From: Carboxylicivirga sediminis | GTDB lineage: Bacteria; Bacteroidota; Bacteroidia; Bacteroidales; Marinilabiliaceae | DNA: 64,000 nt | Reading direction: 5' to 3' | NCBI RefSeq assembly: GCF_018156225.1 | Contig: NZ_JAGTAR010000001.1 | Span: 186,001 to 250,000 of the forward strand | Shown here: positions 17,932 to 37,406 of the stretch, piece after piece | How positions within the stretch are numbered: the stretch's first letter is position 1 | How the letters are laid out: the number at the start of each line of letters is the position of its first letter | Made by a program: the position numbers and the translations under genes | The notes under the pieces: model-generated | Told to the model about the DNA's origin: nothing | Databases searched by the model: none | The model's input: only the letters and a program-made list of their open reading frames with translations

Positions 17932-18762
17932 TTATAACTTACTCAACTGAATCAGATCAACGGAAAATGTAAGATAACTGCGCTCAGCCAATGGATTCAT
18001 CACGGCTGCCACCTTAACAGGAAGTTTGGCATTTTCGCCAACTTTAAGCTTTCGGGTAAAGGCAATGCCAATATCATTGAAACCAGGTTTTGCCCCATAG
18101 AAATGAGCTCCTGTTGGATCGTGCAAACTAAACGCACCACCAACATGTGCCTTTACTTTATTTTCGCCCCAATACCAACCATATTCTAATGCCAGGTATT
18201 GCGTATATCTTTGCGCACCTCTGTAACTGATCTGTTCGTCGCCATCCTGAATGTATTCCAGTTCATTATCGCGACCAAAAACCAAAGTGGATGACTTTAA
18301 ATGCCAATGACCGGCTTTATCAAGCTGCACATTCACTATCAGGTCGAGCAGGCCGCGGGTTGTTTGTTTATTGAAATCAAATATGCCGCTTGGATCAGGT
18401 ATATCCGTAATACCCTGTGTAAAGTTGTAATAATATTCAAGGTGCACGTTAAATCGAGGTTGACGATAGACCAGTATAAAATCTGTTTCCTGATAAACGC
18501 CATTTAAACCAACTCCTCCATACATACCAAAAATCCAATCGCCCCAAATAACACCCGCCTGTGTAGCCATTGCCGGAGAGGCTGAAGGCAACAGACCTCG
18601 GAAGACATTTTGTGACTTAAAAGCCAGACTCATATCCCAATCCACTTTAGTAGCCTTATCTATATAAAGGCTATCGGCTACTACTTTATTATCGTGCTGT
18701 GCCCTGGCCATAAAAACAAAGCCAGACATAAATAAAATAAATACTATAATTCGCTCTCTCAT
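17932..18762 (-). CDS. Predicted outer-membrane beta-barrel protein, unknown function
   Basis: 276 residues with a signal peptide (MRERIIVFILFMSGFVFMARAQ). The mature part has alternating hydrophobic/polar strands rich in Tyr, Trp and Gly (FNVHLEYYYNF, YLALEYGWYWGENKVKAHVGG) and ends with a barrel-like terminal strand (TFSVDLIQLSKL). An early FRGLLPSASPA segment recalls bacterial barrels that begin with a 'RG.S.S.' strand, but I do not recognise a family. It stands alone between the CAZyme block and the AraC/hydrolase array. A TAGTTTTG -7-like box lies just upstream. A role in outer-membrane transport is only an inference from fold. Confidence 0.7.
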   Translation of the reverse strand: MRERIIVFILFMSGFVFMARAQHDNKVVADSLYIDKATKVDWDMSLAFKSQNVFRGLLPSASPAMATQAGVIWGDWIFGMYGGVGLNGVYQETDFILVYRQPRFNVHLEYYYNFTQGITDIPDPSGIFDFNKQTTRGLLDLIVNVQLDKAGHWHLKSSTLVFGRDNELEYIQDGDEQISYRGAQRYTQYLALEYGWYWGENKVKAHVGGAFSLHDPTGAHFYGAKPGFNDIGIAFTRKLKVGENAKLPVKVAAVMNPLAERSYLTFSVDLIQLSKL

Positions 18763-18896
18763 AACTTACTCATATTAATGGTGACTTATTTGATATCCAA
18801 AACTACGGTGTATTGTGGAGGTTAATTATTCCAATATTCTCATACATCACCCCATAATCGCCAAACTGTAATTCAGACATATTCAAGTGGCATCTT

Positions 18897-18958: not shown

Positions 18959-20239
18959 TTATTTATTTAAATAGTCCGCAATTTGCTGAAACGCATTTTC
19001 CACGCGTTTCATCCGCTCACGATCGGCACTTGTTTTTTCTGATGCAAAACGTACAATCACTACTTCTTTTGTTGGATTAACATAGATGTATTGACCATAA
19101 ATACCTTTGGCTAAAAATGAATTATCGGCATCTCCTTTTACCCACCAGTAATTTCGGTAGGTGCCATTTGGGTATAAATCAGCATGTGACCCATTAATAA
19201 ATTCATCTCTGTTACCATTATTGATTATGTCTGATGTTACAGATGATGAAAAAACCCGCTGACCATTCATTAGTCCTCCCTGTTGCATTAATAAGCCAAA
19301 CTTAGCAAAGTCGTACACCGGCGCTGACAAACCGCCAGTAGCCCAGGCAATTCCGGCTCCATCAATAAGATAGATTGCCTGTCCTTCAGCCCCCAGATGA
19401 CGCCATAATTCATCTGATACATTCTGCTCCAGCGTCTTACCTGTAACGCGATTTAAAACCCACCCCAACACATCAACAGTTGGAGAGTTGTATAAGAAGG
19501 ATTCTCCATGCTTCCGTTCCTGCGATACCGATGGCAAAAAGTCCATAATTCCGCCACCTTCGTAGCCTTTAATCTGCCATGAGTTGGCTGCTGCTCCATA
19601 TTGACGGGCAAAAGATTGTTCATTCATCAAGGCTTCAATGCTTTCGTCCCAGGCGGTTCCTGCACTCATATCTAACAGTTGACGTACAGTAGCCTTTGCA
19701 AACCCACTTTTTGACAATTCAGGAATGATGTCTTTTACCATTGCATCAGGATCCAATGTGCCACGGTCAATTAAAATGGCTGCTACCGTTCCAATAACTG
19801 ATTTAGACGTAGATGCTGCCCAGTGTGGTGATAGAGGTGTCATATCATTCCAGAATCGCTCGTACACTAACTGTCCCTTATGCAATACTACAAAAGCATC
19901 AGTATTATATATTTCCAGCAACTCGCGCAAATCGAACTGCTGATCTCCGTCAAGGCCAACGGTCAGTTTATCCATGTTTTGAATTGAGCGCTCAAATGGA
20001 ATCGACGGACCATATCCATTATCAATATTAGTTGTGTTATGAATGCGTTGCACATTTAAAAATCCCCAACGGTTAAAAGGATACATTGCCCAGTTTGTGG
20101 CATCCACCCGTTTATCCTGGGGCGCCGGATAGCCTACCATCAATCCTAATTCTTTGGCTGTATCGCCATTTTGTGCAACAGCACTCTGCATCATGGCCAA
20201 AACAACAGTTGCCATTAGTAAGTAATTTCTTAGTTTCAT
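18959..20239 (-). CDS. Exported serine hydrolase, class C beta-lactamase fold (NylB-like)
   Basis: 426 residues with a signal peptide (MKLRNYLLMATVVLAMMQSAVAQ). The SxxK nucleophile motif is STSKS in HWAASTSKSVIGT, and the second catalytic motif is LYNSPTVDVLGW. A late YVNPTKEVVIVRFAS strand completes the fold. The pattern resembles 6-aminohexanoate-dimer hydrolase (NylB) and related esterases more than true beta-lactamases, so likely reactions are amide or ester hydrolysis of small substrates in the periplasm. It is divergent from the AraC paralog at 20406, whose promoter lies in the shared spacer. This is module 1 of the AraC/hydrolase array. The natural substrate is unknown. Confidence 0.85.
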   Translation of the reverse strand: MKLRNYLLMATVVLAMMQSAVAQNGDTAKELGLMVGYPAPQDKRVDATNWAMYPFNRWGFLNVQRIHNTTNIDNGYGPSIPFERSIQNMDKLTVGLDGDQQFDLRELLEIYNTDAFVVLHKGQLVYERFWNDMTPLSPHWAASTSKSVIGTVAAILIDRGTLDPDAMVKDIIPELSKSGFAKATVRQLLDMSAGTAWDESIEALMNEQSFARQYGAAANSWQIKGYEGGGIMDFLPSVSQERKHGESFLYNSPTVDVLGWVLNRVTGKTLEQNVSDELWRHLGAEGQAIYLIDGAGIAWATGGLSAPVYDFAKFGLLMQQGGLMNGQRVFSSSVTSDIINNGNRDEFINGSHADLYPNGTYRNYWWVKGDADNSFLAKGIYGQYIYVNPTKEVVIVRFASEKTSADRERMKRVENAFQQIADYLNK

Positions 20240-20273
20240 AATATAACGTTTTTAATAGTTTCAACTTACATCA

Positions 20274-20281
20274 CAAATATA
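20274..20281 (-). promoter_or_regulatory. -7 box of NylB-like hydrolase 1
   Basis: TATATTTG on the minus strand, 35 bases before the start codon, fits TAnnTTTG. No clear -33 TTG is found at the expected distance, as expected for an activator-dependent promoter. Confidence 0.4.
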
Positions 20282-20356
20282 CAGGTGCGGCAGGTCCCTG
20301 AACTATTGATTTTCTTCAAGCAAAAATCCAAAATCGTCAAAACACTTTAATTAGTC

Positions 20357-20387
20357 TTGGCCAGCACCACTTATTCAACTACATTTG
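20357..20387 (+). promoter_or_regulatory. Promoter of AraC paralog 1; decides the start codon
   Basis: TTG (20357-20359), a 20-base spacer and TACATTTG (20380-20387) match the Bacteroidota consensus. The -7 box overlaps an in-frame TTG at 20385 that could be read as a start, so translation must begin downstream, at ATG 20397, 20406 or 20418. Confidence 0.6.
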
Positions 20388-20405
20388 AAAGACGAGATGG
20401 AAAAC

Positions 20406-21389
20406 ATGAAGAACACCATGCCTATAATTCTTGAATTCACAGAAGGCAAAGCAGAGAACTACTTTAAGGCCGTTCATGACTATTTTGGTGGTGAGCTAAA
20501 GGCTGACTCATACTATTTTAAGAGAGGTGCAACATTAATACATGGTACTTCTCTTCAGCTAACCGAAGGTATTGAGCTTTCGATTATTGATGCTATACAT
20601 ACCGAAGCACTAAAAATGGTTCGAGTACCGGATAACAATCCGGACTATTATCACCTGGTAATTATCCATACCGGCAAATACACTCAATCTTTTGAACAGG
20701 AACTCTTAAAACTTGAAGCCGACAGTACAAAAGGGATATTTATCTACAACGGCATGTTTCCGCTAGAAGCCGAATTTCCAGCTAATACGCCCTATAAAGC
20801 CATAACGTTCAAATTTCATAAAGCATGCCTCGAAGACTTAATACCTGAAGCCGCTGCGATGTTCAAAACCATGTATCCATCTGATGAAGGTATTGCATAC
20901 CACATTCCTACAACCAACAAGGTCAATCAGCTAGCTGATGATATTCTGAGCTATCAGAAGGGTATTTACGGAGCAAAAGCCATGATAAAAGCGCGGGCTT
21001 TTGAGGCTTTTGTTATCATCATGAAGATAATGGAACAGATGACGGATGATGAGCTACATGGTTTGCATATTGACGACTACAACCGACTGATGCGTATCAA
21101 AAAGCATCTGTTGGATTCATTAACCGACACCATCAATGTAGAAGCCATTGCCGAAGAGTTTGCCATTAGCGTATCGAAGCTTAACAGGGATTTTAAAGCC
21201 TTGTTTGATATGACCATTTATAAGTTTTACACCCGCGCCAAAATGGATGAAGCCTACCGTCGATTGCAAACAGGTAACTACTCGGTGGCTGAAGTAGGGT
21301 ATGACCTGGGCTACAGTAGTCTTCCTAAGTTTTCGGAGATGTTTAAGAAAGTAAAAGGGATTAACCCAAAGGACGTAATAGCCTTGTAA
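20406..21389 (+). CDS. AraC family regulator, array paralog 1
   Basis: About 327 residues. ATG 20406 is chosen because the promoter -7 box ends at 20387; ATG 20397 is also possible. The N-terminal ~230 residues form a domain shared only by the paralogs in this window, opening LEFTEGKAENYFKAVHDYF and carrying the shared motif TKGIFIYNGMFPLEAEFPAN. The AraC domain covers the last ~100 residues, ending KMDEAYRRLQTGNYSVAEVG and FKKVKGINPKDVIAL. It is divergent from NylB-like hydrolase 1 and convergent with the YtcJ-like amidohydrolase, so regulation of the divergent hydrolase is the natural inference. The ligand is unknown. Confidence 0.88.
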   Translation: MKNTMPIILEFTEGKAENYFKAVHDYFGGELKADSYYFKRGATLIHGTSLQLTEGIELSIIDAIHTEALKMVRVPDNNPDYYHLVIIHTGKYTQSFEQELLKLEADSTKGIFIYNGMFPLEAEFPANTPYKAITFKFHKACLEDLIPEAAAMFKTMYPSDEGIAYHIPTTNKVNQLADDILSYQKGIYGAKAMIKARAFEAFVIIMKIMEQMTDDELHGLHIDDYNRLMRIKKHLLDSLTDTINVEAIAEEFAISVSKLNRDFKALFDMTIYKFYTRAKMDEAYRRLQTGNYSVAEVGYDLGYSSLPKFSEMFKKVKGINPKDVIAL

Positions 21390-21424
21390 ATACCTAAAAT
21401 GCACACCTATAGCCACAAGACAAC

Positions 21425-21454
21425 ATTACCCCACTGCTATAGCAACGGGGTAAT
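21425..21454. terminator. Hairpin between convergent AraC 1 and the amidohydrolase gene
   Basis: The inverted repeat ATTACCCC/GGGGTAAT surrounds a short loop between the two stop codons. It resembles the hairpin at 27406-27435, which has the same position in module 4, suggesting it was copied with the modules. Confidence 0.5.
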
Positions 21455-21489
21455 GATAATAAAGCAAAACTATTCAATATAGCAGACTG

Positions 21490-23202
21490 CTAATTGTTTT
21501 GAAACACCATCTTTCCATTCATCCAGGTCTCTACAACTTCTATTTCCGAAATTTTGTAAGAATCAACCTTGCGTGGATCATTTTCGAGAATAACTAAATC
21601 GGCATATTTACCAACTTCAATTGAGCCTATTTCGTGCTCCGACATACACTGCCAGGCTGCTTCACTGGTTAAAGCCCGGATAGCTGATTCTACAGATACG
21701 CTCTCCTCAGGCGATATTTTATAATTCGGCTCTTTGAAAGTGTTGCGGTTAACAGCAATCTGAATCATCTCCAACGGATCCGGATTGGTCACCATAAAAT
21801 CAGAGTGAAGGGTATAACTAATATTACGGCATTCGGCACTATGCGCACGATCCAATAGCTGCACTTTTTCTTCACCAAACACCATATCGCGCAACCAAAC
21901 GCCCCAGTAATGAACATGACCAATCAGAAAGCTGGCTGAAATACCGTAGTTTTTCATCTTTTCAAACTGTTCATCGTGTATAATTGAAGCATGCTCAATG
22001 CGAATACGCAAAGGCTCTATATCAATCCCATCCTCAATCAGGTTTTCAACCATTGTTAAAATATTATCAATGGCCGCATCTCCATTACCATGCACAGCCA
22101 GTTGCCAGCCTTGGGCTGCTCTTTGTCTGGCAAAACGTGTTAATGCCTCAACCGATGTATATTCTTTACCATAGGTTCCCTGGTGCATACCACAACAATA
22201 TGGCTCACGCTGTAAACCGGTATAGCCCTGGTTTGAGCCATCTGCCACAAGTTTAAAACCCACCAGGCGAACCAAATCATTCCCGTCATTGGGTTGAATA
22301 TCAACCTCTGTCCACTCATCATTAAGTAAATACGACGGATATGCACGAATACGTGTGGTTAATTCAGGATTAGCTCCAACAGCCTTCAGAACGTCCCAAT
22401 CGGCGGTACTATTACTTGCCACCCCCAAGGCCAGCTCGGTAGTAGTGGTAATCCCTTTTGAGTTCCAATCACCGGTTAAAGCCAGTATAGCTTCAACCGG
22501 ATCAACTGTTTGTGCTTCGGGCATCGCCATCCAAACCTGAATAAAACTGGCCATGTTTTTCATTACTCCTGTTAAATCACCATTGGCATCGCGCACAAAC
22601 TCTGCACCATCGGGGTTTGTAACTTTGTTGGTAATACCTGCCACTTCAAAAGCTTTAGAATTAGCATATGCCAAATGCCCTGATGCGTTTAAAATAAAAA
22701 CAGGGTGTTCAACAGAAACAGCATCCAGATCCTTAATGGTCAATTCTTCAGGGCCATCCTGCACGGCAGGGTCCCAGTTACGGGCTGCAATCCACTTTCC
22801 AGGTTCGGCATTGTCTGCCATCTCCTTTAAATGCTTCAGCACTTCATCACTTGTTTTAAAACGCGACATACCAACATATTCCATCAGGTAATCAACGGAG
22901 GCACCAGCTACCACATGGGCATGCGGATCGATAAAACCAGGCAACATGGTTTTGCCTTCCAAATCAATCAAACTGGCTTGTTTCCCAAACTCTTTCTGTA
23001 GATTTGATAAATCACCGGTTGCAACAATCTTATCACCTTCAATAGCAATGGCTTCCACTTCAGAAAAATCACTATCCACCGTTAGAATGGTTCCACCATG
23101 AAAAATAGTGACTGTTGTCTCTTTTTGAGTGCAACTAGTCAAGCCAACTATCATCAGGATACCTAACAGGTAAGTCCTAAAAGAATGCTTTCTTGTCTTC
23201 AT
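21490..23202 (-). CDS. YtcJ-like amidohydrolase, lipoprotein
   Basis: 570 residues with a lipobox (IVGLTSC), so it is probably exported and lipid-anchored. It belongs to the amidohydrolase superfamily, YtcJ/N-substituted formamide deformylase type: metal ligands in MLPGFIDPHAHV, further active-site motifs AVHGNGDAAIDN and RIRIEHASI, a late Asp region HSDFMVTNPDP, and a C-terminal composite-domain strand KYADLVILENDP. Likely reaction: metal-dependent hydrolysis of an amide-type bond; the substrate is unknown. It is divergent from AraC paralog 2 and forms module 2 of the array. A -7 box TATGTTTG lies in the spacer. Confidence 0.88.
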   Translation of the reverse strand: MKTRKHSFRTYLLGILMIVGLTSCTQKETTVTIFHGGTILTVDSDFSEVEAIAIEGDKIVATGDLSNLQKEFGKQASLIDLEGKTMLPGFIDPHAHVVAGASVDYLMEYVGMSRFKTSDEVLKHLKEMADNAEPGKWIAARNWDPAVQDGPEELTIKDLDAVSVEHPVFILNASGHLAYANSKAFEVAGITNKVTNPDGAEFVRDANGDLTGVMKNMASFIQVWMAMPEAQTVDPVEAILALTGDWNSKGITTTTELALGVASNSTADWDVLKAVGANPELTTRIRAYPSYLLNDEWTEVDIQPNDGNDLVRLVGFKLVADGSNQGYTGLQREPYCCGMHQGTYGKEYTSVEALTRFARQRAAQGWQLAVHGNGDAAIDNILTMVENLIEDGIDIEPLRIRIEHASIIHDEQFEKMKNYGISASFLIGHVHYWGVWLRDMVFGEEKVQLLDRAHSAECRNISYTLHSDFMVTNPDPLEMIQIAVNRNTFKEPNYKISPEESVSVESAIRALTSEAAWQCMSEHEIGSIEVGKYADLVILENDPRKVDSYKISEIEVVETWMNGKMVFQNN

Positions 23203-23235
23203 ATCTTATAATTTAATTATTTGTAATTTCTGATA

Positions 23236-23243
23236 CAAACATA
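23236..23243 (-). promoter_or_regulatory. -7 box of the YtcJ-like amidohydrolase gene
   Basis: TATGTTTG on the minus strand, 34 bases before the start codon, fits TAnnTTTG. A -33 TTG is not evident at the usual distance. Confidence 0.4.
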
Positions 23244-23342
23244 TAAAGGTTAATTAAAGTCTATTGCACCATTTTCGTCAATGACTATCCCATTATTCAC
23301 ATTAGCCAGTGGCGAACAACTCGTGTTAAAAATATGTTTAAC

Positions 23343-23373
23343 TTGGGACACACTCTGACAAACTTTATTTTTG
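23343..23373 (+). promoter_or_regulatory. Promoter of AraC paralog 2
   Basis: TTG (23343-23345), 20-base spacer, TATTTTTG (23366-23373) followed by C: a full match to TTG-N20-TAnnTTTGC. It ends 19 bases before the start codon. Confidence 0.65.
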
Positions 23374-23392
23374 CATTAAACAATCACACGGC

Positions 23393-24373
23393 ATGAAACC
23401 AACACCCCTGACTCTATCGTTTAAGGAAGGTGCTTTTGACAACTATATCAAAGCATTGTATGAACATTTTGGTGGAAAGTATAAAGATAATCACTATCAT
23501 TTTCGTAACACTAAAACTCAAATTCATGCTGCCATACAATATATTGCTGATGGCATTGAGATTGGCATTATGGATGCCATCCACTATGAACCAATACTTT
23601 TAGAACGTGTTCCAGATGGGAATCCTGATTATCTGCACCTCATCATCATCCATACCGGCGAATTTTCCCAATCGTACAACAATCAGCATCAACATTTGGA
23701 AGCCGACAGTGCAAAAGGCATTTTCTTTTACAATGGCATGTTTCCTTTGGTGGCTGAGTTTCCGGCCAATATGCCATACAGATCCATCGCCTATAAGTTT
23801 AAAAAAGAAGCCCTTAAGCATCTGATACCAGAAGCCTTGCCGCAGATTAGTAAAATGTATCAGACTCAGGGAGGCCTAGCCTACCATATTCCCACCACCA
23901 GCGAAGTCAACCAGCTTGTTGATGATATATTTCACTATCACAAGGGCGGATTTGGCACCAGTGCTTTGATTAAAGCCCGGGCAATAGAAGCTTTTGCCAT
24001 AACTTTAAAGGTGATGGAGCAAATGGACGATGATGAGCTGAACGGCCTGCATATTGACGATTATAATCGCTTGATGCGCATCAAAAAACACCTGCAGGAG
24101 TCATTCGCCGGCACCATTAACGTAGAGGCCATTGCTGAAGAATTTGCCATTAGCATCTCTAAGCTCAACCGCGACTTTAAAGCGCTGTTTAATACGACCA
24201 TCTACAAGTTCTACACCCATGCTAAAATGGATGAGGCCTATCGCCGCCTCCAATCGGGGCAATACTCGGTTACCGAGGTAGGCTACGACCTGGGCTACAA
24301 TAGCCTGTCAAAGTTCTCGGAGATGTTTAAGAAAGTAAAAGGGATTAGCCCAAGTGATGTGGTGGCGTTGTAA
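23393..24373 (+). CDS. AraC family regulator, array paralog 2
   Basis: 326 residues, closest by eye to paralog 1 over its whole length. The N-terminal domain opens LSFKEGAFDNYIKALYEHFG and has the shared motif AKGIFFYNGMFPLVAEFPAN. The AraC domain carries LHIDDYNRLMRIKKHL, then AEEFAISISKLNRDFKALF, and ends FKKVKGISPSDVVAL. It is divergent from the YtcJ-like amidohydrolase (190-bp spacer) and probably controls it. No kinase, receiver or membrane segment is present, so the ligand, if any, must be seen in the cytoplasm. Confidence 0.88.
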   Translation: MKPTPLTLSFKEGAFDNYIKALYEHFGGKYKDNHYHFRNTKTQIHAAIQYIADGIEIGIMDAIHYEPILLERVPDGNPDYLHLIIIHTGEFSQSYNNQHQHLEADSAKGIFFYNGMFPLVAEFPANMPYRSIAYKFKKEALKHLIPEALPQISKMYQTQGGLAYHIPTTSEVNQLVDDIFHYHKGGFGTSALIKARAIEAFAITLKVMEQMDDDELNGLHIDDYNRLMRIKKHLQESFAGTINVEAIAEEFAISISKLNRDFKALFNTTIYKFYTHAKMDEAYRRLQSGQYSVTEVGYDLGYNSLSKFSEMFKKVKGISPSDVVAL

Positions 24374-24875
24374 GAAGCTGCATACTGCTTGTTCGCTTAT
24401 TTTAGTTTTACCGCAGAGTAGAAGGAGGACGCGGAGGAATTACAGCTTCAATCCTCTACTCAGGGAAAAGAAGCCGTCAACTTAAACCTTTTCCAAAGTT
24501 TAAAACTTTGGAAAAGATGAGTTCTTAGCTTATTCTGCTTTGTGGAAAGAGGTTTTGATGAGGTGGTCAGACCTCTGCGCTCTTTGCGTTCTCGGCGGTG
24601 AGTTTTTTTATCGCAGAGTAAAAGGAGAAGCAGATGCAGAAAAAATCTCCCTCTCCCTGCGGGTGTCTCCCCAAGGGGCGAATCTACCACATTGGTGAAA
24701 ACAAAGTTTCGCTAATACCTTTAAAAGACTAACACAAATTGGCAAGTGCCGAAGGCGATGGGGGATTGCCACCGAATTAATCCAACAGATGCAGTGCCTT
24801 TATAAAAACTGCACATAAAAAAGTCAGTAGCCACACACTAATGACTACTGACCACTGACGATTATTTACTCACAA
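24374..24875. repeat. Repeat-rich intergenic region
   Basis: A 502-base stretch with no credible gene. It holds two GCAGAGTA(A/G)AAGGAG words (near 24413 and 24613) with GCGGAGG and CTCTTTGCGTTCTCGGCGGTGA blocks, like the decayed 'accgcagag' repeats seen in many genomes. It also holds a near-perfect palindrome around TTCCAAAGTTTAAAACTTTGGAA (centred near 24500), a 20-base word at 24653-24672 that recurs at 31370-31389, and a terminator at 24816-24852. Confidence 0.6.
24816..24852 (-). terminator. Rho-independent terminator after NylB-like hydrolase 2
   Basis: On the minus strand GTCAGTAG pairs with CTACTGAC across a 14-base loop and is followed by seven T. It directly follows the serine hydrolase stop codon. 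Confidence 0.8.
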
Positions 24876-26225
24876 TTACCTGTAATGCTCCTGAATAATC
24901 TGGCGGGCAAACCCAGGGAAGTAAAGCAGGTTTTCATATACTGTTGAGAACCATACCACCACTGTATTGGTTTCGGGTGATACATATATGCCCTGACCAT
25001 AGCGACCAGCCTTGTACATGTCACCATCGTTAAATACAGCATCCCACTGGTAGCTGGCATGCGATGGTACCTCGCCAAAATATTTGGCATTATTGGTTCC
25101 TTGTTCCCCTTTCAGATAAGCATCGCTATAAGTGTTATCATACACCTTATCAAAATACGTATCGCTTACCAGTTGGTGCTCAGCCACTTTGTTCCAGCTA
25201 TCGGTATAAATCATTCCGTAACGCCCCATATCGCGCAAGCGTGATGAGAAAATGGCTCCGTTTAAAATTTCGCCTTGTGGCGTCAGTGCATAAGCACCTT
25301 CACTTTCCATACCTATCTGCGTCCATAAACGCTGACTCATGGCATCTTCAAAACGCTGGCCGGTTACGCGTTCTACTATCATTCCAAGTATCTGAGTATT
25401 CATGGTAGAATAATCAAAGGCGGTGCCCGGCTCTATATATAGCTTTACATCACGCATAATGTCAAACAATGACTTATCTGAAACTTCATGACGGGTAGCA
25501 ATGGCATAGGCAAATCCAACAGCCAGTGGGTGACCAGGCGTTTTAAAGTTCTTGTTGGTCTCCACATAATCCATTCCTGAAACATGGTGCAGCAAATGCT
25601 TTACCTTCACCTTTTGCCAGTCTTCACTATCGTACTCCGGAATATAATGTGTTACATTTTTCTCAAAATCTATCAAACCGTCCTCTTCCAGCATGTGCAC
25701 CAATATACCGGTTAATGTTTTAGAAGCCGAAAACCACACATGCTTATCAGTTGGGCGCATACCCATGTATTTTTCCAAAGCAATTTTACCATCGTGTATC
25801 ACTAACAGCCCCTGCATACGTGCACTGTCATTCTCTACCAAATCTCTCAATGGCATTTTACCCGCATTGGTATCCGTCATGGTATCCCAAAGCTTTTCAT
25901 CCAACTCCTCTTCGAGCATGGCTACTTGCCCCTCGCGGTAAAGGGTGGCGGTAGGCGACACTTCGGGCAGGTTAAGGAACGAGTATGTTCCGGTATCATC
26001 AGCTTTAATAAAGTTGAGTGCCCGGTAGGCTGTGCGATATGTCTGCGCCTCAGATGCTTCAATATCATCGGCAAAATAGCTAATAGGCTTCGTGGCCTTA
26101 TCTTGCTTCTCTGTTTGTTTTATCTCTTTTTTACCTTCATCGTTCAAGGTATCATTATTTGCACATGCAACTAAGTTAATAAGCAATGTTGCCACAACTA
26201 CAGGTATAAATTTTTTCGTTTTCAT
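24876..26225 (-). CDS. Exported serine hydrolase 2, class C beta-lactamase fold (NylB-like), lipoprotein
   Basis: 449 residues with a lipobox (LLINLVAC). The SxxK motif is SASK in HVWFSASKTLTGILVHML, and the second motif is FDYSTMNTQILGMIVERVTG. A signature before it (LLVIHDGKIALEKYM) is typical of NylB/esterase-type members. About 35 residues between the lipid anchor and the fold are charged and probably act as a tether. It is related to the hydrolase at 18959-20239 but clearly diverged. It is divergent from AraC paralog 3 (165-bp spacer) and forms module 3 of the array. Substrate unknown; amide or ester hydrolysis outside the cytoplasm is the likely reaction. Confidence 0.86.
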   Translation of the reverse strand: MKTKKFIPVVVATLLINLVACANNDTLNDEGKKEIKQTEKQDKATKPISYFADDIEASEAQTYRTAYRALNFIKADDTGTYSFLNLPEVSPTATLYREGQVAMLEEELDEKLWDTMTDTNAGKMPLRDLVENDSARMQGLLVIHDGKIALEKYMGMRPTDKHVWFSASKTLTGILVHMLEEDGLIDFEKNVTHYIPEYDSEDWQKVKVKHLLHHVSGMDYVETNKNFKTPGHPLAVGFAYAIATRHEVSDKSLFDIMRDVKLYIEPGTAFDYSTMNTQILGMIVERVTGQRFEDAMSQRLWTQIGMESEGAYALTPQGEILNGAIFSSRLRDMGRYGMIYTDSWNKVAEHQLVSDTYFDKVYDNTYSDAYLKGEQGTNNAKYFGEVPSHASYQWDAVFNDGDMYKAGRYGQGIYVSPETNTVVVWFSTVYENLLYFPGFARQIIQEHYR

Positions 26226-26356
26226 AATACCATTATTTTAATTCGTGATTGTTTACTCTTAAAATTCTAATACAAAGATGCACCTGAATAACTGCCTGCA
26301 CTATTCCAAAACGTTCAGGCATCAATTCAAAAAGACAAAAACAATATGAAAGTAGG

Positions 26357-26364
26357 TATATTTG
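26357..26364 (+). promoter_or_regulatory. -7 box of AraC paralog 3; decides the start codon
   Basis: TATATTTG fits TAnnTTTG. The transcript would start near 26371, so the in-frame ATGs at 26366 and 26372 are at or before its 5' end and ATG 26390 is preferred. No -33 TTG is seen, unlike the other array regulators. Confidence 0.45.
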
Positions 26365-26389
26365 AATGTATATGCTACTTTTAAACATT

Positions 26390-27376
26390 ATGAATAACGA
26401 GAATACTCTACATTTGAAGGTAAAAGAAGGCATTACCTCGAACTACCTGGATGCTTTGCAAGCTAAAATTGGAGGTACAAGAGTCGAAAATCGCCTGGAT
26501 TACCATGTTGGCAATAGCCGCCTAAGTATTTCCTATTACAATCTAATTCCTGAATTTGAGGTAACACTCGCCCAGCTGGACTACCATCAGAAGTTGATAG
26601 TTGAACGTGAACCGGATGACCGTGCCGATTATTTTCATTTCAACATGGTGAATCAGGGTCAGATAAAACAACACATCGACAACAAAGAGCAATATACCGA
26701 AGCAGGTGCCTCTAATGGTGTTTTTATTTACAATGGTTTATTCCCGCTCAAGTCATTTTTTCCGGCTAAAGGCAATACGCAGTCCATGGCCTTTAAATTC
26801 TCGAAAAAGGCGTTTGATCAACTAATGCCCGAATCACTCGACTTGTTAAACAGCCTGTTTCCCGATGCAGAACCACTTGCCTACCACACCGCCATCAACA
26901 GTGAATTGGCTAAGGAGCTAAAGGATTTATTTTATTACGAAAACACCAGTTACGGACGTACTCCCAATGTTATGTCTGTCGGCCTGAAATTGTTCCCCAT
27001 TTTGATGCAATCGTTAAAGACGCAATTGGATAAGGATGAACTCAATGGCCTGCACCTGGAAGATTACAATCGCATTGTGGAAGTTAAGGATTACCTGCTG
27101 GCCAACCTCAACCAGATAATTAAAGTCGAAAACATAGCAGAGATGCACCACATAAGCCTGTCGAAGTTAAAGCGTGATTTTAAAAGTTTATATGATGTAT
27201 CTATTTATAAGTTTTACACCCATGCTAAAATGGATGAAGCTTACCGCAGGCTAAAAACCGGTCAGTATTCGGTAACCGAGGTAGGCTTTGATTTGGGCTA
27301 CAGCAGCCTGTCGAAGTTTTCAGAGATGTTTAAAAAAGTAAAGGGGATTAACCCGAAGGATGTGGTGCCGTTGTAG
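26390..27376 (+). CDS. AraC family regulator, array paralog 3
   Basis: 328 residues from ATG 26390. The N-terminal domain opens LHLKVKEGITSNYLDALQAKI and has the shared motif SNGVFIYNGLFPLKSFFPAK. The AraC domain (last ~100 residues) ends YRRLKTGQYSVTEVGFDLGY and FKKVKGINPKDVVPL. The 3' end is nearly identical in DNA to that of paralog 4, including synonymous sites. It is divergent from NylB-like hydrolase 2 and convergent with the M20 gene. It probably regulates the divergent hydrolase; this is positional inference. Confidence 0.87.
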   Translation: MNNENTLHLKVKEGITSNYLDALQAKIGGTRVENRLDYHVGNSRLSISYYNLIPEFEVTLAQLDYHQKLIVEREPDDRADYFHFNMVNQGQIKQHIDNKEQYTEAGASNGVFIYNGLFPLKSFFPAKGNTQSMAFKFSKKAFDQLMPESLDLLNSLFPDAEPLAYHTAINSELAKELKDLFYYENTSYGRTPNVMSVGLKLFPILMQSLKTQLDKDELNGLHLEDYNRIVEVKDYLLANLNQIIKVENIAEMHHISLSKLKRDFKSLYDVSIYKFYTHAKMDEAYRRLKTGQYSVTEVGFDLGYSSLSKFSEMFKKVKGINPKDVVPL

Positions 27377-27405
27377 ATGACAACGAACTATTATAAGTTA
27401 GACAA

Positions 27406-27435
27406 CACTACCCCGTGCAAAAACACGAGGTAGTG
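27406..27435. terminator. Hairpin between convergent AraC 3 and the M20 gene
   Basis: The inverted repeat CACTACCCCGTG/CACGAGGTAGTG has a five-base loop. No long T run follows, but its position between two stop codons and its likeness to the hairpin at 21425-21454 support a terminator role. Confidence 0.5.
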
Positions 27436-27457
27436 AAGTTATAAACAGCTTTATTGC

Positions 27458-28822
27458 TTATTTCTTCTGTAAAATCTCTAATGCCACTAAAGCCGATACT
27501 TTTGAGCCAAAGGTTATCCCATTCAGGTCGACCTGGTAGCTTGGCTCGTGGGGCGAAAATGGAAACTCTTTACCCTGCGACTGCGCATTGACAAAAAGCT
27601 GAGGCTCTGCTGTTCCAATAAATAAATAAGCTCCTTTTACGTTTTCCAAACCATCAATCAGGGCAAAAGCATCTTCTGAGCCTGGCAGGCTAATATTATC
27701 CAGACGGTGATTAACAAAATCTACCCGTTCGCTTGCATTTCGTATGGTGGCCATCAAATTAGGGTCATTATAAATAGCCGGACCAAAACCACTTTGTGTA
27801 ATGGTTGGCATCATGTCTTCTGAAACCCCATTTGCCATGGCTATACCGTTAACAATATCATGGATGCCTTTTATCATCTTATTCATCACTTCGTTAGTTG
27901 AGAAGTGCAGCTTTAATTTCAGGTGTGATTCGGTGGGAATCACATTGTGCTCCACACCAGCCTGAACACTTCCAATGGTTAGTACTGCCACCTCTTCAGG
28001 ATCGGTGTAACGCGAAACCACGGTCTGCAACTGCACTATGGCCATACCTGCCATTACCACCGGGTCGATGGCATGATGAGGCGATGAACCATGACCGCCA
28101 ATACCATGAAAGGTGACGTCCATATGGGTGGTTCCGGTAGTCAGACGACCATCGGTTGTAAGCAGTGTACCAGTTGGGAAAGGGCCTGTATGCTGCGCTA
28201 AAAAATAATCAGGCTGTGGCACATTGTATTTGGTGTATAAACCATCGTCCACCATTGCCTGGGCTCCCTGAACCAATTCTTCGGCGGGTTGGGCAATTAA
28301 TACCAAGGTACCTGACCAGTGCTCTTTCATGGCGCTCATTGTATGAGCCAATGCTACAACATAAGTTGTATTGGCATCGTGCCCACACATGTGCGATACC
28401 GGAACTTCAAGGCCATTGGGACCAATGGCTGTTTCACGGCTGGCATACGCTAACTCTGTTTCCTCTTTAATTGCCAATGCGTCCATATCGCCCCGATACA
28501 TTAACACGGGCCCATCACCATTTCGGAGGATTCCTGCCACTCCGGTTTTGCCAATGCCAGTATGCACTTCAAAACCAAGCTTACTCAGCTCATCAGCCAC
28601 AACGCCTGCTGTTCTTGTTTCCTGAAACGGAAGCTCTGGGTTCGCATGTAAATCCTTATACACATTATGGATATAATCCGCATTGTTATCTATCGCCTGC
28701 TCCATTTGCTTAATAATACTCTGTGGTAAAGTGCTTTCCTGTGCATAAACACTCAAGCTCGTTATCAGTAAAGCCACTAAGATGAGGCTTGCCAGCCGTA
28801 CATTTATAATTATCGTTTTCAT
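27458..28822 (-). CDS. Exported M20 family amidohydrolase (N-acyl amino acid / IAA-amide hydrolase type)
   Basis: The start is set at ATG 28822, where the signal peptide MKTIIINVRLASLILVALLI begins. About 454 residues. Metal-site motifs are in YRGDMDALAIKEET, SHMCGHDANTTYV and AQPAEELVQGAQAMV. The dimerisation domain has FHGIGGHGSSPHHAIDPV, and the C-terminal metal region has SLPGSEDAFA. This is the M20D-type amidohydrolase pattern (hippurate, N-acyl amino acid or indole-acetyl amino acid hydrolases). Most relatives are cytoplasmic, so export is notable. It is divergent from AraC paralog 4 (228-bp spacer) and forms module 4 of the array. Confidence 0.9.
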   Translation of the reverse strand: MKTIIINVRLASLILVALLITSLSVYAQESTLPQSIIKQMEQAIDNNADYIHNVYKDLHANPELPFQETRTAGVVADELSKLGFEVHTGIGKTGVAGILRNGDGPVLMYRGDMDALAIKEETELAYASRETAIGPNGLEVPVSHMCGHDANTTYVVALAHTMSAMKEHWSGTLVLIAQPAEELVQGAQAMVDDGLYTKYNVPQPDYFLAQHTGPFPTGTLLTTDGRLTTGTTHMDVTFHGIGGHGSSPHHAIDPVVMAGMAIVQLQTVVSRYTDPEEVAVLTIGSVQAGVEHNVIPTESHLKLKLHFSTNEVMNKMIKGIHDIVNGIAMANGVSEDMMPTITQSGFGPAIYNDPNLMATIRNASERVDFVNHRLDNISLPGSEDAFALIDGLENVKGAYLFIGTAEPQLFVNAQSQGKEFPFSPHEPSYQVDLNGITFGSKVSALVALEILQKK

Positions 28823-28916
28823 AACACAAAAATTTTTATTTTTCAATCATCGCATAAAATGCTCTTATAACTGTTACAAGGTGATAGTCACTATTGCTTT
28901 ATGAACTTTCACATGA

Positions 28917-28924
28917 CAAATATA
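28917..28924 (-). promoter_or_regulatory. -7 box of the M20 gene
   Basis: TATATTTG on the minus strand fits TAnnTTTG, about 95 bases before the start codon. A -33 TTG is missing at the usual distance, as for the other hydrolase promoters of the array. Confidence 0.4.
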
Positions 28925-28999
28925 GGTTCTAAAACTGCTGGCTATTATCCCTTATCGCCCATAGGGTATCCTTCCACGGCCATTGTTTATTTACGAGAA

Positions 29000-29030
29000 T
29001 TGTTAAAAAGGCGATAATCTATTAATTTCA
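29000..29030 (+). promoter_or_regulatory. Promoter of AraC paralog 4
   Basis: TTG (29000-29002), 20-base spacer, TAATTTCA (29023-29030). The spacing is as for paralogs 1 and 2; the -7 box deviates at its last two bases. Confidence 0.45.
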
Positions 29031-29050
29031 CATTTAAAACTAATCGTTTG

Positions 29051-30034
29051 ATGGAGCAGGAAGACCAATACACTTTAGAACTAAAAGAAGGTAGTGTTAG
29101 AAACTATATAGAATTATTGGAACAAACATTCGGTGGTACCCGAACGACAAATGCCTATGATTATAAGAAAGGGCTTGATAAAATTCATATTTCTCACTAC
29201 AACATTCTGGATGACCTGGAATTGGCACTGTTAGAAGTTAATCTTAGTAAAGCATTGAATGTTCATCGACAACCCGATGAACGAACAGACTTTTACCACC
29301 TGACTTTTATTAAAGAAGGGCACATTGAACGCGACTACCAAAATAAAGAACTTGAGGATGCAGATACGACCAAAGGCTTATTTATTCACAACGGACTGTT
29401 TGCTCTTTCATCTCATTACCCGGCTAACCTTGAGATGCGTTCATTATCTGTTAAATTCTCCAGAAAGGCATTATTGCAAATAATCCCCGAAGCAAATGAT
29501 TTATTACAATCACTCTTCCCCGACGATGAACCACGTGGCTATCATACCAATGCTCTGGTTGAACTAGAGAATATGGTAAGGGATATTTACTTTTTTGAGA
29601 AGGCAGCATTTGGTAGTAAAGCACTGGTAATTGGGCGTAGCCTGGAACTATTCACTCAACTGCTGGGGACTATAAAAAACCAGCAGGAAAAGAATAGCTT
29701 AAACGGTTTACATTATGACGATTACCAAAGACTTTTGGATATTAAGCATTACATACTGAGCCATCTTGACCGAAAACTGAATATTGAGGATATTACAAAT
29801 GAATTTGGCTTAAGCGATTCTAAACTTAAACGCGATTTTAAAGCCCTTTTCAATTCATCGGTATACCAATTTTATACCCATGCTAAAATGGATGAAGCTT
29901 ACCGCAGGCTTAAATCGGGACAATACACCGTTACTCAGGTGGGATTTGATTTAGGCTACAACAGCCTGTCGAAGTTTTCTGAGATGTTTAAAAAAGTAAA
30001 GGGGATTAACCCGAAGGATGTGGTGCCGTTGTAA
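29051..30034 (+). CDS. AraC family regulator, array paralog 4
   Basis: 327 residues from ATG 29051 (an in-frame TTG precedes it). The N-terminal domain opens LELKEGSVRNYIELLEQTFG and has the shared motif TKGLFIHNGLFALSSHYPAN. The AraC domain ends YRRLKSGQYTVTQVGFDLGY and FKKVKGINPKDVVPL, with DNA nearly identical to paralog 3 in its last ~70 bases. It is divergent from the M20 amidohydrolase gene and probably controls it. Its opening residues are also the closest match to the miniature copy at 40742-41152. Confidence 0.87.
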   Translation: MEQEDQYTLELKEGSVRNYIELLEQTFGGTRTTNAYDYKKGLDKIHISHYNILDDLELALLEVNLSKALNVHRQPDERTDFYHLTFIKEGHIERDYQNKELEDADTTKGLFIHNGLFALSSHYPANLEMRSLSVKFSRKALLQIIPEANDLLQSLFPDDEPRGYHTNALVELENMVRDIYFFEKAAFGSKALVIGRSLELFTQLLGTIKNQQEKNSLNGLHYDDYQRLLDIKHYILSHLDRKLNIEDITNEFGLSDSKLKRDFKALFNSSVYQFYTHAKMDEAYRRLKSGQYTVTQVGFDLGYNSLSKFSEMFKKVKGINPKDVVPL

Positions 30035-30374: not shown

Positions 30375-31172
30375 TTATTTAGCAAACACAAAGGTTGTTA
30401 CAAACCTTAGCTCACTCTTACCAGCATAGTCGGGACGAATCACATTGTTGTAATACTGCACGCCAAGTGATACAGGTATCTTACCCATAAACACCAGTTT
30501 GCTAACTCCACCACCTACAGGTACGGTCCATTTCTGTCCCTTTTCAGCATTCCAGTTGGCCGTAATGGTTGGGAAGGTATTAACGACCCATCCTTTGCCC
30601 AGTCCGTAGGCTACTAACGTTTGCCCCACAAAACGATTCACATCGGCCCGATCCTTATCACCGGCAAACGAATGCGTTTGACGCAAGACCATATCAAAGG
30701 TCCAGTTTTTGTTTTGATACACCATTACAATTCCGGCTCCGGCGCTCCATTTTCCACTACCTAACAGGGGATCGGTAGCAGTTGGCAGATCAATGGATGG
30801 CCCTACCCCCCAGTTTAATTTTCCCTTGGTTTTGGGAGCCATAAAGAACGAGTAGTTTAAATCGGTAAAACCAGTAGTACTTACCGACTCCCCAACAGCT
30901 GCCGGCACATACGAGGTACCAAATACCCCGCGGTGAACGATACTGAATTTGTTAAAATCGGTAGCTACAATGGGCTGAAACGAGGCAGTAAAGGTATTAC
31001 CATCGAGCCCCGGTGTGCCTGTACCAATATTATACTGAACCGGCAGAGCAATAATGCTGGCCAGCGGATTTTGTAACTTCTGGGCAATCTCATCCTGCTC
31101 CGATTGGGCATATAGTTGGCCGGCACTAAGCATGGCCAGTGCTACTAATACGTAATTTCTAATTGTTTTCAT
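30375..31172 (-). CDS. Outer-membrane beta-barrel protein, transporter-like (Phenol_MetA_deg-like)
   Basis: The start is set at ATG 31172, where the signal peptide MKTIRNYVLVALAMLSAGQLYAQ begins; about 265 residues. The mature part runs as antiparallel strands with motifs LASIIALPVQYNIGTG, NWGVGPSIDLPTAT, WSAGAGIVMVYQNKNW and a C-terminal LRFVTTFVFAK strand. This pattern is seen in proteins annotated as 'transporter' or MetA-pathway-of-phenol-degradation barrels. The substrate is unknown. The gene is single, convergent with AraC paralog 4. Confidence 0.75.
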   Translation of the reverse strand: MKTIRNYVLVALAMLSAGQLYAQSEQDEIAQKLQNPLASIIALPVQYNIGTGTPGLDGNTFTASFQPIVATDFNKFSIVHRGVFGTSYVPAAVGESVSTTGFTDLNYSFFMAPKTKGKLNWGVGPSIDLPTATDPLLGSGKWSAGAGIVMVYQNKNWTFDMVLRQTHSFAGDKDRADVNRFVGQTLVAYGLGKGWVVNTFPTITANWNAEKGQKWTVPVGGGVSKLVFMGKIPVSLGVQYYNNVIRPDYAGKSELRFVTTFVFAK

Positions 31173-31955
31173 GACTATATATTTAAATGAATAATTCTGA
31201 AGCACATGGGCTTTTGCAAGCCTGAAACTCTCATTATACTTTAGTCACAAAAATGGTGAGTTACTGAGCCTTAAACTTTCCCATACAGGGCATTCATTAT
31301 CCCGATTAGGTCATCCACTTGTATAATGCCAGTTATCGTCATCTTATGTGTTTTATCCTGAAATCCCCCCTCCCTGCGGGTGTCTCCCCGAGTGGAGAAT
31401 CTTCCCCGGTGGGGAAGGCGTGCCAGCTCCAGCATGAGCTGCCAAAGCAGTTGGGGAAGGCTTACAAGCTCCAGTAAGAGCTGCCGAAGCATTTAGGGAA
31501 GGCGTACAAGCTCTAGTACGAGTTGCCGAAGCACTTGGGGAAGGCTTACTAACGCTAGTACGAGCTGCCGAAACACTTGGGGAAGGCATGCAAGCTCTAG
31601 TACGAGATGCCGAAGTAGTTGGGGAAGGCTTACAAGCTCTAGCACGACCCGCCCAACAAAAAAGGTGACGTGCCCATTCTGGCACGTGTACTTCGATTAT
31701 ACCTTGGAGTTTTGTTCAGTAGTAATCATATGCATTCAATTAATTCTATTCATCAATTATTTTGTATGGTAAAATTTACAATCTGATTACTGGCAAATCA
31801 ACAAATAGCACTATATACAGCATATCAAGCATATAATATTAATGAATAATATCATTGTATAATTTTATTGAGCCATTATGATGATAAATATATTATACTT
31901 ATATTCAATCTACATTTCAATAAACAGCACCAAACATTAACTTAAAATTATTCTA
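31173..31955. other. Long intergenic region with a 42-bp tandem repeat
   Basis: 783 bases without a convincing gene. From left to right it holds the upstream region of the barrel gene, a shared word (31370-31389, also at 24653-24672), the tandem repeat at 31411-31662, and about 220 very A+T-rich bases before the DUF6261 gene. A TACATTTC -7-like box lies near 31908. Confidence 0.6.
31411..31662. repeat. 42-bp tandem repeat, six copies
   Basis: Copies start at 31411, 31453, 31495, 31537, 31579 and 31621, exactly 42 bases apart with no indel; the last copy is diverged at its right end. Each begins GGGGAAGGC (AGGGAAGGC in the third) and carries an AGCTC...GAGCTGCC core. Because 42 is a multiple of three, frames stay open across the array on both strands. 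On the plus strand 31438-31668 encodes a 14-residue repeat like GEGLQALVRAAEAL, but there is a stop at 31435 and no good start codon. Confidence 0.85.
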
Positions 31956-34847: not shown

Positions 34848-35303
34848 CTATCCTTCCACGGTGTGGTATATCTTATTCACAATTTTCCAACCATCGGGAA
34901 ATTTATACAGCTGCATATAGTCGATATACACCGACTTTCCTTCCAGGATGTAATCCATTTTGATTGTCGCCGCATTGTTGCTGATATCAATACTCAAATA
35001 ATCAACACTCACATGCTTACCTACTTTGCGGGGCAAAACGCCATCAACCATATTATTTTTAACGCGCTGCTTAAACTCGGTAAGTGACACGTTACTCAAC
35101 CGGCCATTGTTATTCAGTACCTGCATGCGAAAATCGGGATGAAAGCCGGCATCTATCTTGGCCATGTCGCCAATATTCTGAACACCGTCGAGATAAGCCG
35201 ATTCAATAACACGCTTAATGGCCATTTCCTCTTTGATATCTGATTGAGCAAAAGACGTAAATCCTATAAGGGCCGCAGTAAACAGTAAAATATATTTTTT
35301 CAT
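34848..35303 (-). CDS. Secreted NTF2-like (lumazine-binding-like) protein, copy A
   Basis: 151 residues from ATG 35303, where the signal peptide MKKYILLFTAALIGFTSFAQ starts; the frame is open ~70 codons further upstream but without support. The fold is a small cone of the NTF2/SnoaL type: helices with VIESAYLDGVQNIGDMAKID, then FHPDFRMQVLNNNG, and C-terminal strands YLSIDISNNAATIKMDYILE, YIDYMQLYKFPDGWKIVNKI. It resembles the 'putative lumazine-binding' family. It is a tandem duplicate of the gene at 35574-36029. No catalytic function is proposed. Confidence 0.8.
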   Translation of the reverse strand: MKKYILLFTAALIGFTSFAQSDIKEEMAIKRVIESAYLDGVQNIGDMAKIDAGFHPDFRMQVLNNNGRLSNVSLTEFKQRVKNNMVDGVLPRKVGKHVSVDYLSIDISNNAATIKMDYILEGKSVYIDYMQLYKFPDGWKIVNKIYHTVEG

Positions 35304-35521
35304 CGGTCTAAATGTTTTATCAAAAAGCTGATGGCAATCACTTCTTAGGCCAATCCTCCTTTTGTGGTTATAATTCGGTTTAATTACTTCATACACAAAG
35401 AACCGATATATAGGTTTTAGTTTATACCCCATTTCATTCATCTGCTTACCCATTTTGGTCAAAATAGAACCTGAAGTAGTTTCATAGAGCAGAAGCTTAA
35501 ATTGCATACCCAATAAACCAT

Positions 35522-35573: not shown

Positions 35574-36029
35574 CTATTGGCCTACTGTATAGTAAATCTT
35601 ATTTACAATCTTCCAGCCATCAGAGAATTTATACAATTGCAAATAATCGATATATATAGTTTTACCTTCCAGAATATATTCCATTTTAACACTTGCGGCA
35701 TACTTCTCTATATCAATATTCAAGATATTAACACTCACCTGTTTCCCTTCGGGGCGGGGCAAAATGCCTTTCTCCAAATTATCCTTAGCCATTTGTTTCC
35801 ATCCCTGTCGGTCGACATTGGATAAACTACCATCCTCTTCAAGCACCTGCATTCTAAAATCAGGATGAAAGCCGGCATCAATTTTATCCATATCGCCTAT
35901 ATTCTGTGTCCCATCCAGGTATGCAGTCTGAATAACTTGCTTAATTGCTTTTACCTCTTCTTTATCTGACTGAGCAAAAGAAGTGAAAGCTAATAGGGTC
36001 GTCGCAACTAGTAAAATATACTTTTTCAT
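35574..36029 (-). CDS. Secreted NTF2-like (lumazine-binding-like) protein, copy B
   Basis: 151 residues with a signal peptide (MKKYILLVATTLLAFTSFAQ). It aligns with copy A over its full length without visible gaps: QTAYLDGTQNIGDMDKIDAG, FHPDFRMQVLEEDGSLSNVD, MEYILEGKTIYIDYLQLYKF, DGWKIVNKIYYTV. The identity is well over half by eye, so the pair is a fairly recent tandem duplication. Secreted NTF2-like proteins of this type are common in Bacteroidota and have no settled role. Confidence 0.82.
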   Translation of the reverse strand: MKKYILLVATTLLAFTSFAQSDKEEVKAIKQVIQTAYLDGTQNIGDMDKIDAGFHPDFRMQVLEEDGSLSNVDRQGWKQMAKDNLEKGILPRPEGKQVSVNILNIDIEKYAASVKMEYILEGKTIYIDYLQLYKFSDGWKIVNKIYYTVGQ

Positions 36030-36241
36030 GTGTTAACTGTTTTTACAAAAAGCCGATGACTTAATTATATGTAAACGGTCTTTTTGTGGTTAATCAATTG
36101 GTTGAATTACTATCGTTATTTTTATCACAAATAACCGATATATTCCCTTTAACCTTTAACCCATTTAGTTCACCTGCATATCCGTTGCGGTCAAAATATA
36201 ACGGCACATTAGGCATGTATCAAAACCCTTACAATCAACTA

Positions 36242-37252: not shown

Positions 37253-37406
37253 CGTATGTTTTATAAATTAATAATCTTGTGTTTACATTTCAAAAGTAAG
37301 TTGCAAGTCAGCTAAAAAAGGCTCCTATCCTATCAGTCGAGAGCCGTAAACAGTCAAAACATTGGACAAGCTAAGAATGTGTGACCATGACAGTTGCCAT
37401 GACAAC

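Follow-up and report, generated by a model that had tools for sequence, protein, structure and literature searches.

In a 64,000-nucleotide stretch of the Carboxylicivirga sediminis genome (the window below; contig NZ_JAGTAR010000001.1, positions 186,001 to 250,000), four plus-strand genes for AraC-type regulators each stand back to back with a minus-strand gene for an exported hydrolase. Does each regulator govern only the enzyme that it faces, or do the four share a larger set of genes? A first-pass annotation, limited to positions 18,959 to 30,034, had described an array of four modules in which every exported amide/ester hydrolase has a private regulator. The four divergent pairs are indeed present at these coordinates, but the range was too small, the arrangement running on outside it from 17.9 to 40.7 kb. 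We consider it likely that regulators 1 to 4 are ligand-responsive AraC activators of a regulon that shares one operator and serves the envelope and the hydrolysis of amphiphiles. From the operator, its spacing, the membership of the regulon, the co-occurrence with the regulator and the conserved pairing, all of which were computed, we infer binding and activation, a common use of the operators by the paralogs and, far more tentatively, a hydrophobic ligand.

A conserved operator and its promoter geometry

Named contigs and 71 family genomes supplied 130 relatives of the regulators; comparing their last 120 residues for identity reduced these to 62, and the upstream spacers of the 56 that scored above 250 entered an unsupervised expectation-maximisation (EM) search. 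This returned a 32-nucleotide (nt) motif in which two direct half-sites follow each other at a period of 21 bp; the half-site approximates TTGAnCTnATTGG, and the whole, read in the direction of the exported gene, approximates TTGAnCTnATTGG, 8 nt, TTGAnnnnAATGG. The log-likelihood was 336.0, versus 112.7 and 113.5 in two mononucleotide-shuffled sets, for which EM was started fewer times (for the 32-nt scan, ten mononucleotide sets were used). A search at width 20 caught just the start-codon region of the exported genes and was replaced by motifs of 26 and 32 nt. With a posterior above 0.5, the operator is present in 41 of the 56 spacers: the divergent spacers, to which the first-pass annotation had pointed as the place for regulator binding, do hold a conserved AraC-type operator. 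Consensus building used 33 of 36 sites after removal of near-identical ones, then 31 of these 33, both sites of locus L040 being left out.

The consensus of the Bacteroidota -7 element is TAnnTTTG. With at most one mismatch, this sequence lies exactly 25 nt past the operator in 31 of 40 sites (15 exact; one minus-strand site of the 41 was left out), its background rate being 0.0044 per position, and it falls outside the 32-nt motif, on the side of the hydrolase or other exported gene and not on that of the AraC gene. At these 31 sites the direct half-sites, 21 bp apart, abut the promoter at a fixed distance, as in AraC-type activated promoters, and the fixed -7 box on the exported side argues that the operator is placed for an activator of the exported gene rather than of the AraC gene. 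The operators could also be thought to serve chiefly the autoregulation or repression of the AraC genes, as they lie upstream of 41 of the 56 regulators; yet the spacing of the -7 box is fixed on the other side, and genes for outer-membrane proteins without an AraC gene in their spacer have operators too, which leaves this explanation very improbable.

From 22 sites in other species, the window genome and C. mesophila being excluded, a matrix of 83 nt was built. It picks out exactly 11 sites in the 64-kb window; these all lie on the minus strand, within 18.8-40.7 kb, and score 17.8-40.1, the next best reaching 4.5. Twenty random windows drawn from a first-order Markov model gave a mean of 0.05 hits above 15 and a top score of 18.2. 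The 11 operators front five hydrolases, four outer-membrane-type proteins and two small exported (Lumazine_bd_2) proteins, and seven of the 11 genes were absent from the first-pass annotation. The features are as follows (ORF, open reading frame; aa, amino acids; pLDDT, predicted local distance difference test).

17932..18762, minus: exported 276-aa protein, probably an outer-membrane barrel, predicted to be operator-driven (ORF; no Pfam match; kin downstream of operators in genomes G013 and G044)
18831..18862, minus: predicted operator (two direct half-sites) for 17932-18762, -7 box TAGTTTTG 25 nt downstream (matrix scans)
18959..20239, minus: exported PF00144 (NylB/beta-lactamase-fold) serine hydrolase 1 (ORF, Pfam; SxxK motif by eye)
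20307..20338, minus: predicted operator of hydrolase 1, -7 box 20274-20281 (EM, matrix scans)
20406..21389, plus: AraC-type regulator 1 (ORF, Pfam, paralog comparison)
21490..23202, minus: YtcJ-like amidohydrolase lipoprotein, PF07969 (ORF, Pfam)
23269..23300, minus: predicted operator of the YtcJ-like gene, -7 box TATGTTTG 25 nt downstream (EM, matrix scans)
23393..24373, plus: AraC-type regulator 2, AlphaFold pLDDT 89.9 (ORF, Pfam, paralog comparison, model)
24876..26225, minus: PF00144 serine hydrolase 2, lipoprotein (ORF, Pfam)
26306..26337, minus: predicted operator, register fixed by the -7-like box 26273-26280, one mismatch (matrix scans)
26390..27376, plus: AraC-type regulator 3 (ORF, Pfam, paralog comparison)
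27458..28846, minus: exported M20 amidohydrolase, TIGR01891 (ORF, profile match)
28950..28981, minus: predicted operator of the M20 gene, -7 box 28917-28924; lowest of the 11 in the hold-out scan (EM, matrix scans)
29051..30034, plus: AraC-type regulator 4 (ORF, Pfam, paralog comparison)
30375..31205, minus: outer-membrane barrel, start probably internal, 265 aa (ORF; model of pLDDT 64.7, best PDB match a COG4313 channel)
31281..31312, minus: predicted operator of 30375-31205, -7-like box (one mismatch) 25 nt downstream; spacer without regulator (matrix scans)
34848..35513, minus: exported Lumazine_bd_2 protein, 151 aa from an internal ATG (Pfam)
35429..35460, minus: predicted operator upstream of the likely Lumazine_bd_2 start; box at 25 nt with two mismatches, by eye (matrix and R1 scans)
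35574..36029, minus: second exported Lumazine_bd_2 protein (Pfam)
36161..36192, minus: predicted operator of the second Lumazine_bd_2 gene; box at 25 nt with two mismatches, by eye (matrix scans)
36242..37252, minus: exported alpha/beta hydrolase, BD-FAE (Pfam)
37324..37355, minus: predicted operator of the alpha/beta hydrolase, exact -7 box at 25 nt (matrix and R1 scans)
38315..39598, minus: Omp85-superfamily outer-membrane protein (Pfam)
39675..39706, minus: predicted operator of the Omp85-type gene, -7-like box (one mismatch) at 25 nt; spacer without regulator (matrix and R1 scans)
39774..40556, minus: exported outer-membrane-type protein, 260 aa (ORF; OMP_b-brl only at E 0.17)
40620..40651, minus: predicted operator of 39774-40556; top window score in the 32-nt scan, 29.8 (matrix scans)
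40742..41152, plus: regulator 5, sensor-less, DNA-binding domain intact (alignment to C. mesophila)

Profile matches to PF00144, PF07969, PF00144 again and M20 (TIGR01891 at 227.6 bits, cut-off 153.75) bear out that the hydrolases of the pairs are of several unrelated folds, and a signal peptide or lipobox, judged by eye, begins all four. The outer-membrane-type labels at 17932 and 39774 were given by eye, Pfam lending them no support. In the region of 26306, EM placed the site at 26285, one 21-bp period closer to the promoter, so that this spacer may hold three half-sites. Two hits of the 32-nt matrix, at 27498 (17.1, inside the M20 gene) and 34822 (14.8), have no 83-nt score above 4 and were not counted. 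Imperfect short repeats around GCTCTAGTACGAGCTGCCGAAGCACTTGGGGAAGGC are visible by eye at about 31406-31650 of the window.

Over the whole genome, a sequence-only model (R1) finds the same 11 sites with E values from 4e-10 to 0.8, seven of them being in its training set, and one strong unlinked site outside training, at C100:28832-28911 (40.3 bits). Two further sites, on C52 and C41 (E 0.012 and 0.013), were set aside as chance-like, with no exported gene of at least 30 aa within 300 nt. A weak operator-like site (L087, G000:C111:151801-151876; 15.3 bits, E 0.13) precedes the gene of a 125-aa lipoprotein beside the C111 regulator, and in G034 a similar lipoprotein of 128 aa is divergent from a regulator.

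Operator and regulator also occur together across genomes. In the family, the regulator is found in 17 of 71 genomes at E<=1e-30 (G029: fragments only) and the operator, at E<=1e-3, in 18, that is in 17/17 genomes with the regulator versus 1/54 without; the positives are partly biased by training, and the 53 genomes with neither are unbiased. In wider samples the regulator is rare, being present in one of 395 genomes of the class sample at E<=1e-40 (the own genome) and in three of 395 of the phylum sample, two of them weak. Five wider genomes picked for holding it (Draconibacterium, three Flammeovirga and Tamlana), two of which supplied training sites, all have operators at E<=0.05, and these precede similar genes.

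Divergent sensors and a common DNA-binding part

As had been recognised at first pass, regulators 2 to 4 are AraC (HTH_18) paralogs of regulator 1; their identity to it is 42-65%. Over the six pairs among the four, the sensor part is 26-55% identical and the DNA-binding part 64-84%. All 41 aligned relatives have the C-terminal double helix-turn-helix (HTH_18/HTH_AraC), and their recognition helices are near-invariant, with one outlying row (L043:14140). In the sensor part of the four window regulators, every Pfam model stays below its cut-off; in that of the 41 relatives, a weak ExsA_N match in five and DUF1543 in one are the only Pfam matches, and the sensor residue R72 is nearly invariant. 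The AlphaFold model of regulator 2 has a cupin-like N-terminal sensor and a helical linker, and Foldseek matches it to full-length AraC proteins and cupins, the nearest full-length PDB structures being CsvR, ToxT and Rns. Among named contigs, most relatives come from Carboxylicivirga and other Marinilabiliales, the closest to regulator 1 being that of C. mesophila (88% identity); the own genome holds two further full-length paralogs, C45:36461 and C111:152395. Compared with C. mesophila L090:7110-8168, regulator 5 has an in-frame deletion of about 579 bp (193 codons) that corresponds to the sensor domain; the flanking alignments overlap by 7 bp, and the strong operator at 40620 stands in front of this regulator.

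The claim that each regulator is private finds no support at the DNA level: the recognition helices are nearly identical, the operators follow a single grammar, and some lie in spacers without a regulator (31281 and 39675 in the window, C100:28832 elsewhere in the genome). At L028, L034, L035 and L110, a regulator lies between a dGTPase-like gene and a tiny lipoprotein, and at L103 it lies beside the lipoprotein, the contig stopping before the dGTPase-like gene. At L157:8833-9122 of the window genome (G000:C100) and at L189 of G013, the operator and lipoprotein (58 aa and proline-rich in C100) are kept there and the regulator is absent; both genomes carry a regulator of the same clade elsewhere (L088, L046), without a local operator. 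This combination supports the view that the regulator may act in trans on the C100 operator.

A divergent upstream neighbour was found for 44 of the 62 regulators (ORFs of at least 90 aa) and, in agreement with the first-pass expectation, exported hydrolases of several folds are often among them; 26 of 52 tree rows carry a hydrolase-type label. On the tree of these 52 regulators, which we labelled ourselves (four 'other' tips were not counted), 16 labels change 18 times over 48 tips, the minimum being 15, versus a mean of 34.9 and a lowest value of 29 in 2000 shuffles, a contrast inflated by close orthologs. The partners thus appear to have been mostly inherited together with their regulators, and the swapping of enzymes once proposed for the array is rare; PF00144, choloylglycine-type and tiny-lipoprotein partners reappear in separate clades.

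The conservation of the partner family within regulator clades would also suit four insulated modules, each regulator reading the operator of its own hydrolase by small half-site differences and the remaining operators belonging to one or two of them. The departure of the M20 operator from the consensus points the same way, as does a weak correlation between operator and DNA-binding-domain similarity (r 0.20, Mantel p 0.02; 37 sites, pairs with sensor identity below 70%), which is all that a search for a private DNA code yielded and which leaves room for some private preference. We nevertheless hold insulation to be unlikely, given the near-identical recognition helices, the operators in regulator-free spacers of the window and at C100, and the single matrix that fits all 11 sites. 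In a shared regulon, which we prefer, regulators 1 to 4 would combine differing sensor domains with one DNA specificity; each would bind the tandem direct-repeat operator, whose end lies 25 nt before the -7 box of the exported gene, and, once bound, would recruit RNA polymerase as a class-II-like activator. The regulon would then consist of 11 promoters in a 23-kb island and one unlinked tiny-lipoprotein promoter (C100).

Targets and possible role of the regulon

Downstream genes were read for 80 operator sites of the family. At 53 of them a gene of at least 80 aa begins within 300 nt, and a simple rule assigns a signal peptide to 49 of these genes; applied more leniently, the rule also accepts 251 of 467 other genes in these loci (Fisher 6e-9). 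Among the remaining 27 sites, 22 precede a lipoprotein of 52-65 aa (17 within 130 nt and five at 133-149 nt; the search covered 130 nt first, then 320 nt for seven of ten misses) and five precede short ORFs without signal peptide. The tiny lipoproteins have a signal peptide, a lipobox, an acidic stretch after the cysteine (e.g. C-S-S-D-D-K-Y) and a proline-rich tail. This stretch is similar to the signal for lipoprotein export described in Bacteroidota (PMC5080379), which makes it plausible that the tiny lipoproteins sit at the cell surface. TPR proteins, listed as partners in five loci (cluster 1), were discarded: the operator there is first followed by a lipoprotein of 54-63 aa, and the mislabel arose because ORFs below 90 aa had been left uncalled in the neighbour table. 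In Draconibacterium, three operators fall within about 1.1 kb (L222/L227/L232, G799:C62:89408-90517), and the best of them is followed by a 55-aa lipoprotein, an arrangement that suggests tandem copies.

Further targets in relatives are a choloylglycine-type hydrolase, sulfatases, an alkylsulfatase, DUF3604, DUF1254/DUF1214 and DUF2846 proteins, a PF00144 protein in Tamlana and, in Flammeovirga, a TonB-dependent receptor with plug and CarboxypepD_reg domains. Flammeovirga, a lineage far from Carboxylicivirga, has operator islands (L040, L041, L050, L051) with a sulfatase, DUF3604, alkylsulfatase, choloylglycine-type hydrolase and TonB receptor. 'Amide/ester hydrolases' was therefore too narrow a description, outer-membrane proteins, sulfatases, alkylsulfatase, DUF3604 and tiny lipoproteins being targets as well. 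The envelope programme that we propose would consist of exported hydrolases acting on amide or ester bonds or, in relatives, on those of sulfate esters, of outer-membrane barrels that would let small or hydrophobic products through, and of small lipoproteins at the surface. The ligands may be amphiphilic or hydrophobic acids or amides akin to the substrates or products of the enzymes. That they are hydrophobic or amphiphilic is a guess, and a doubtful one, drawn from the decanoic acid of Rns, from enzyme families that cut N-acyl, ester and sulfate-ester bonds, and from the barrel at 30375, whose model best matches a COG4313 channel; that family is implicated in the uptake of hydrophobic molecules (PMC4493636).

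What would such a programme be for? One possibility, somewhat short of an even chance, is the scavenging of lipidic or N-acyl nutrients, as an analogue for amphiphiles of a polysaccharide utilisation locus: hydrolases occur together with outer-membrane barrels, and relatives add alkylsulfatase, sulfatases, an iron-dependent alcohol dehydrogenase (Fe-ADH) and the Flammeovirga receptor, but Pfam recognised no TonB receptor, SusD-like or fatty-acid oxidation gene among the operator targets of the window. Rather unlikely, in our view, is a defence-type response that detoxifies antimicrobial amphiphiles (bile-salt-like compounds, surfactants, acylated antibiotics) instead of feeding on them. The choloylglycine/penicillin-acylase-type, beta-lactamase-fold and alkylsulfatase enzymes and the small lipoproteins would befit it; however, no efflux pump was recognised among the Pfam-scanned targets, and the COG4313-like channel and the Flammeovirga TonB receptor suggest uptake.

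Besides the weak operator correlation above, several observations weigh against a ligand-activated regulon with a shared operator. The 11 window sites come from a matrix that was held out, whereas the motif discovery was not, the register of the foreign training sites having been set by EM with the window spacers included; the operator sites stem from related genomes and are non-independent. One random window (18.2) outscored the weakest real site, that of the M20 gene (17.8), which would therefore not stand on its own. Fifteen of the 56 regulators lack a local operator above the EM posterior of 0.5, and G012 has two weak operator sites despite having no regulator. In other genomes, a few targets are not envelope proteins: a cytosolic Fe-ADH, recognised by Pfam in G014, has a similar counterpart in G017, and non-exported proteins of 45-74 aa occur in G012, G016 and G010. 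On the side of the sensor, the structural match to ToxT and Rns reaches a template-modelling (TM) score of only about 0.3 over the whole chain, and a profile search of the PDB matched the DNA-binding part alone, with no match to the sensor part. Rns, moreover, is inhibited by the decanoic acid that it holds (PMC12379584, PMC8329261).

Known systems and meaning

The individual parts are of known kinds. E. coli AraC at araI1-I2 likewise has a C-terminal double helix-turn-helix and direct half-sites one 21-bp period apart beside the promoter, but it is one regulator for one sugar system; here, paralogs with divergent sensors would share a site at 11 promoters of one island, next to a Bacteroidota -7 box. 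MarA, SoxS and Rob are also AraC-family paralogs that answer different signals through one DNA box; unlike the present regulators, they are not known to be strung together next to their target enzymes in a single island, nor are MarA and SoxS known to carry a sensor domain. ToxT and Rns have a fatty-acid pocket and are, with CsvR, the closest full-length solved structures by Foldseek; they differ in the lack of a sequence match in the sensor part, in the inhibition of Rns by fatty acid and in their targets, which here are hydrolases, outer-membrane proteins and lipoproteins. Polysaccharide utilisation loci share with this island a local regulator, the joint control of exported hydrolases and outer-membrane proteins and, in Flammeovirga, one TonB receptor target, and differ from it in the type of regulator and in their glycoside-hydrolase theme; no SusD or TonB receptor is among the Pfam-scanned window targets, no search having been aimed at SusD itself. 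What may be new is the combination of many sensors, one operator and one island of exported hydrolases and barrels, with tiny lipoproteins; no description of such an island was found in the literature searched, largely open-access papers.

It is tempting, if tentative, to go one step further: the sensors may have diverged while the DNA specificity stayed fixed, several cues (amphiphilic acids, amides, sulfates) thereby feeding one envelope programme. The proline-rich tiny lipoprotein, found under many of the strongest operators, may be its older core, hydrolases and channels having been recruited later, and the sensor-less copy would add basal or competing occupancy.

An uncharacterised AraC subfamily of marine Bacteroidota thus gains a predicted operator, a promoter geometry and a directly testable regulon, and poorly understood exported proteins (DUF3604, YtcJ-type, NylB-type, Lumazine_bd_2 and tiny lipoproteins) are tied into one expression programme. 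As the sensors differ and the operator is shared, a single reporter promoter could serve to screen ligands for many of the regulators. For the cell, such a layout could let several chemical signals converge on a single envelope programme.

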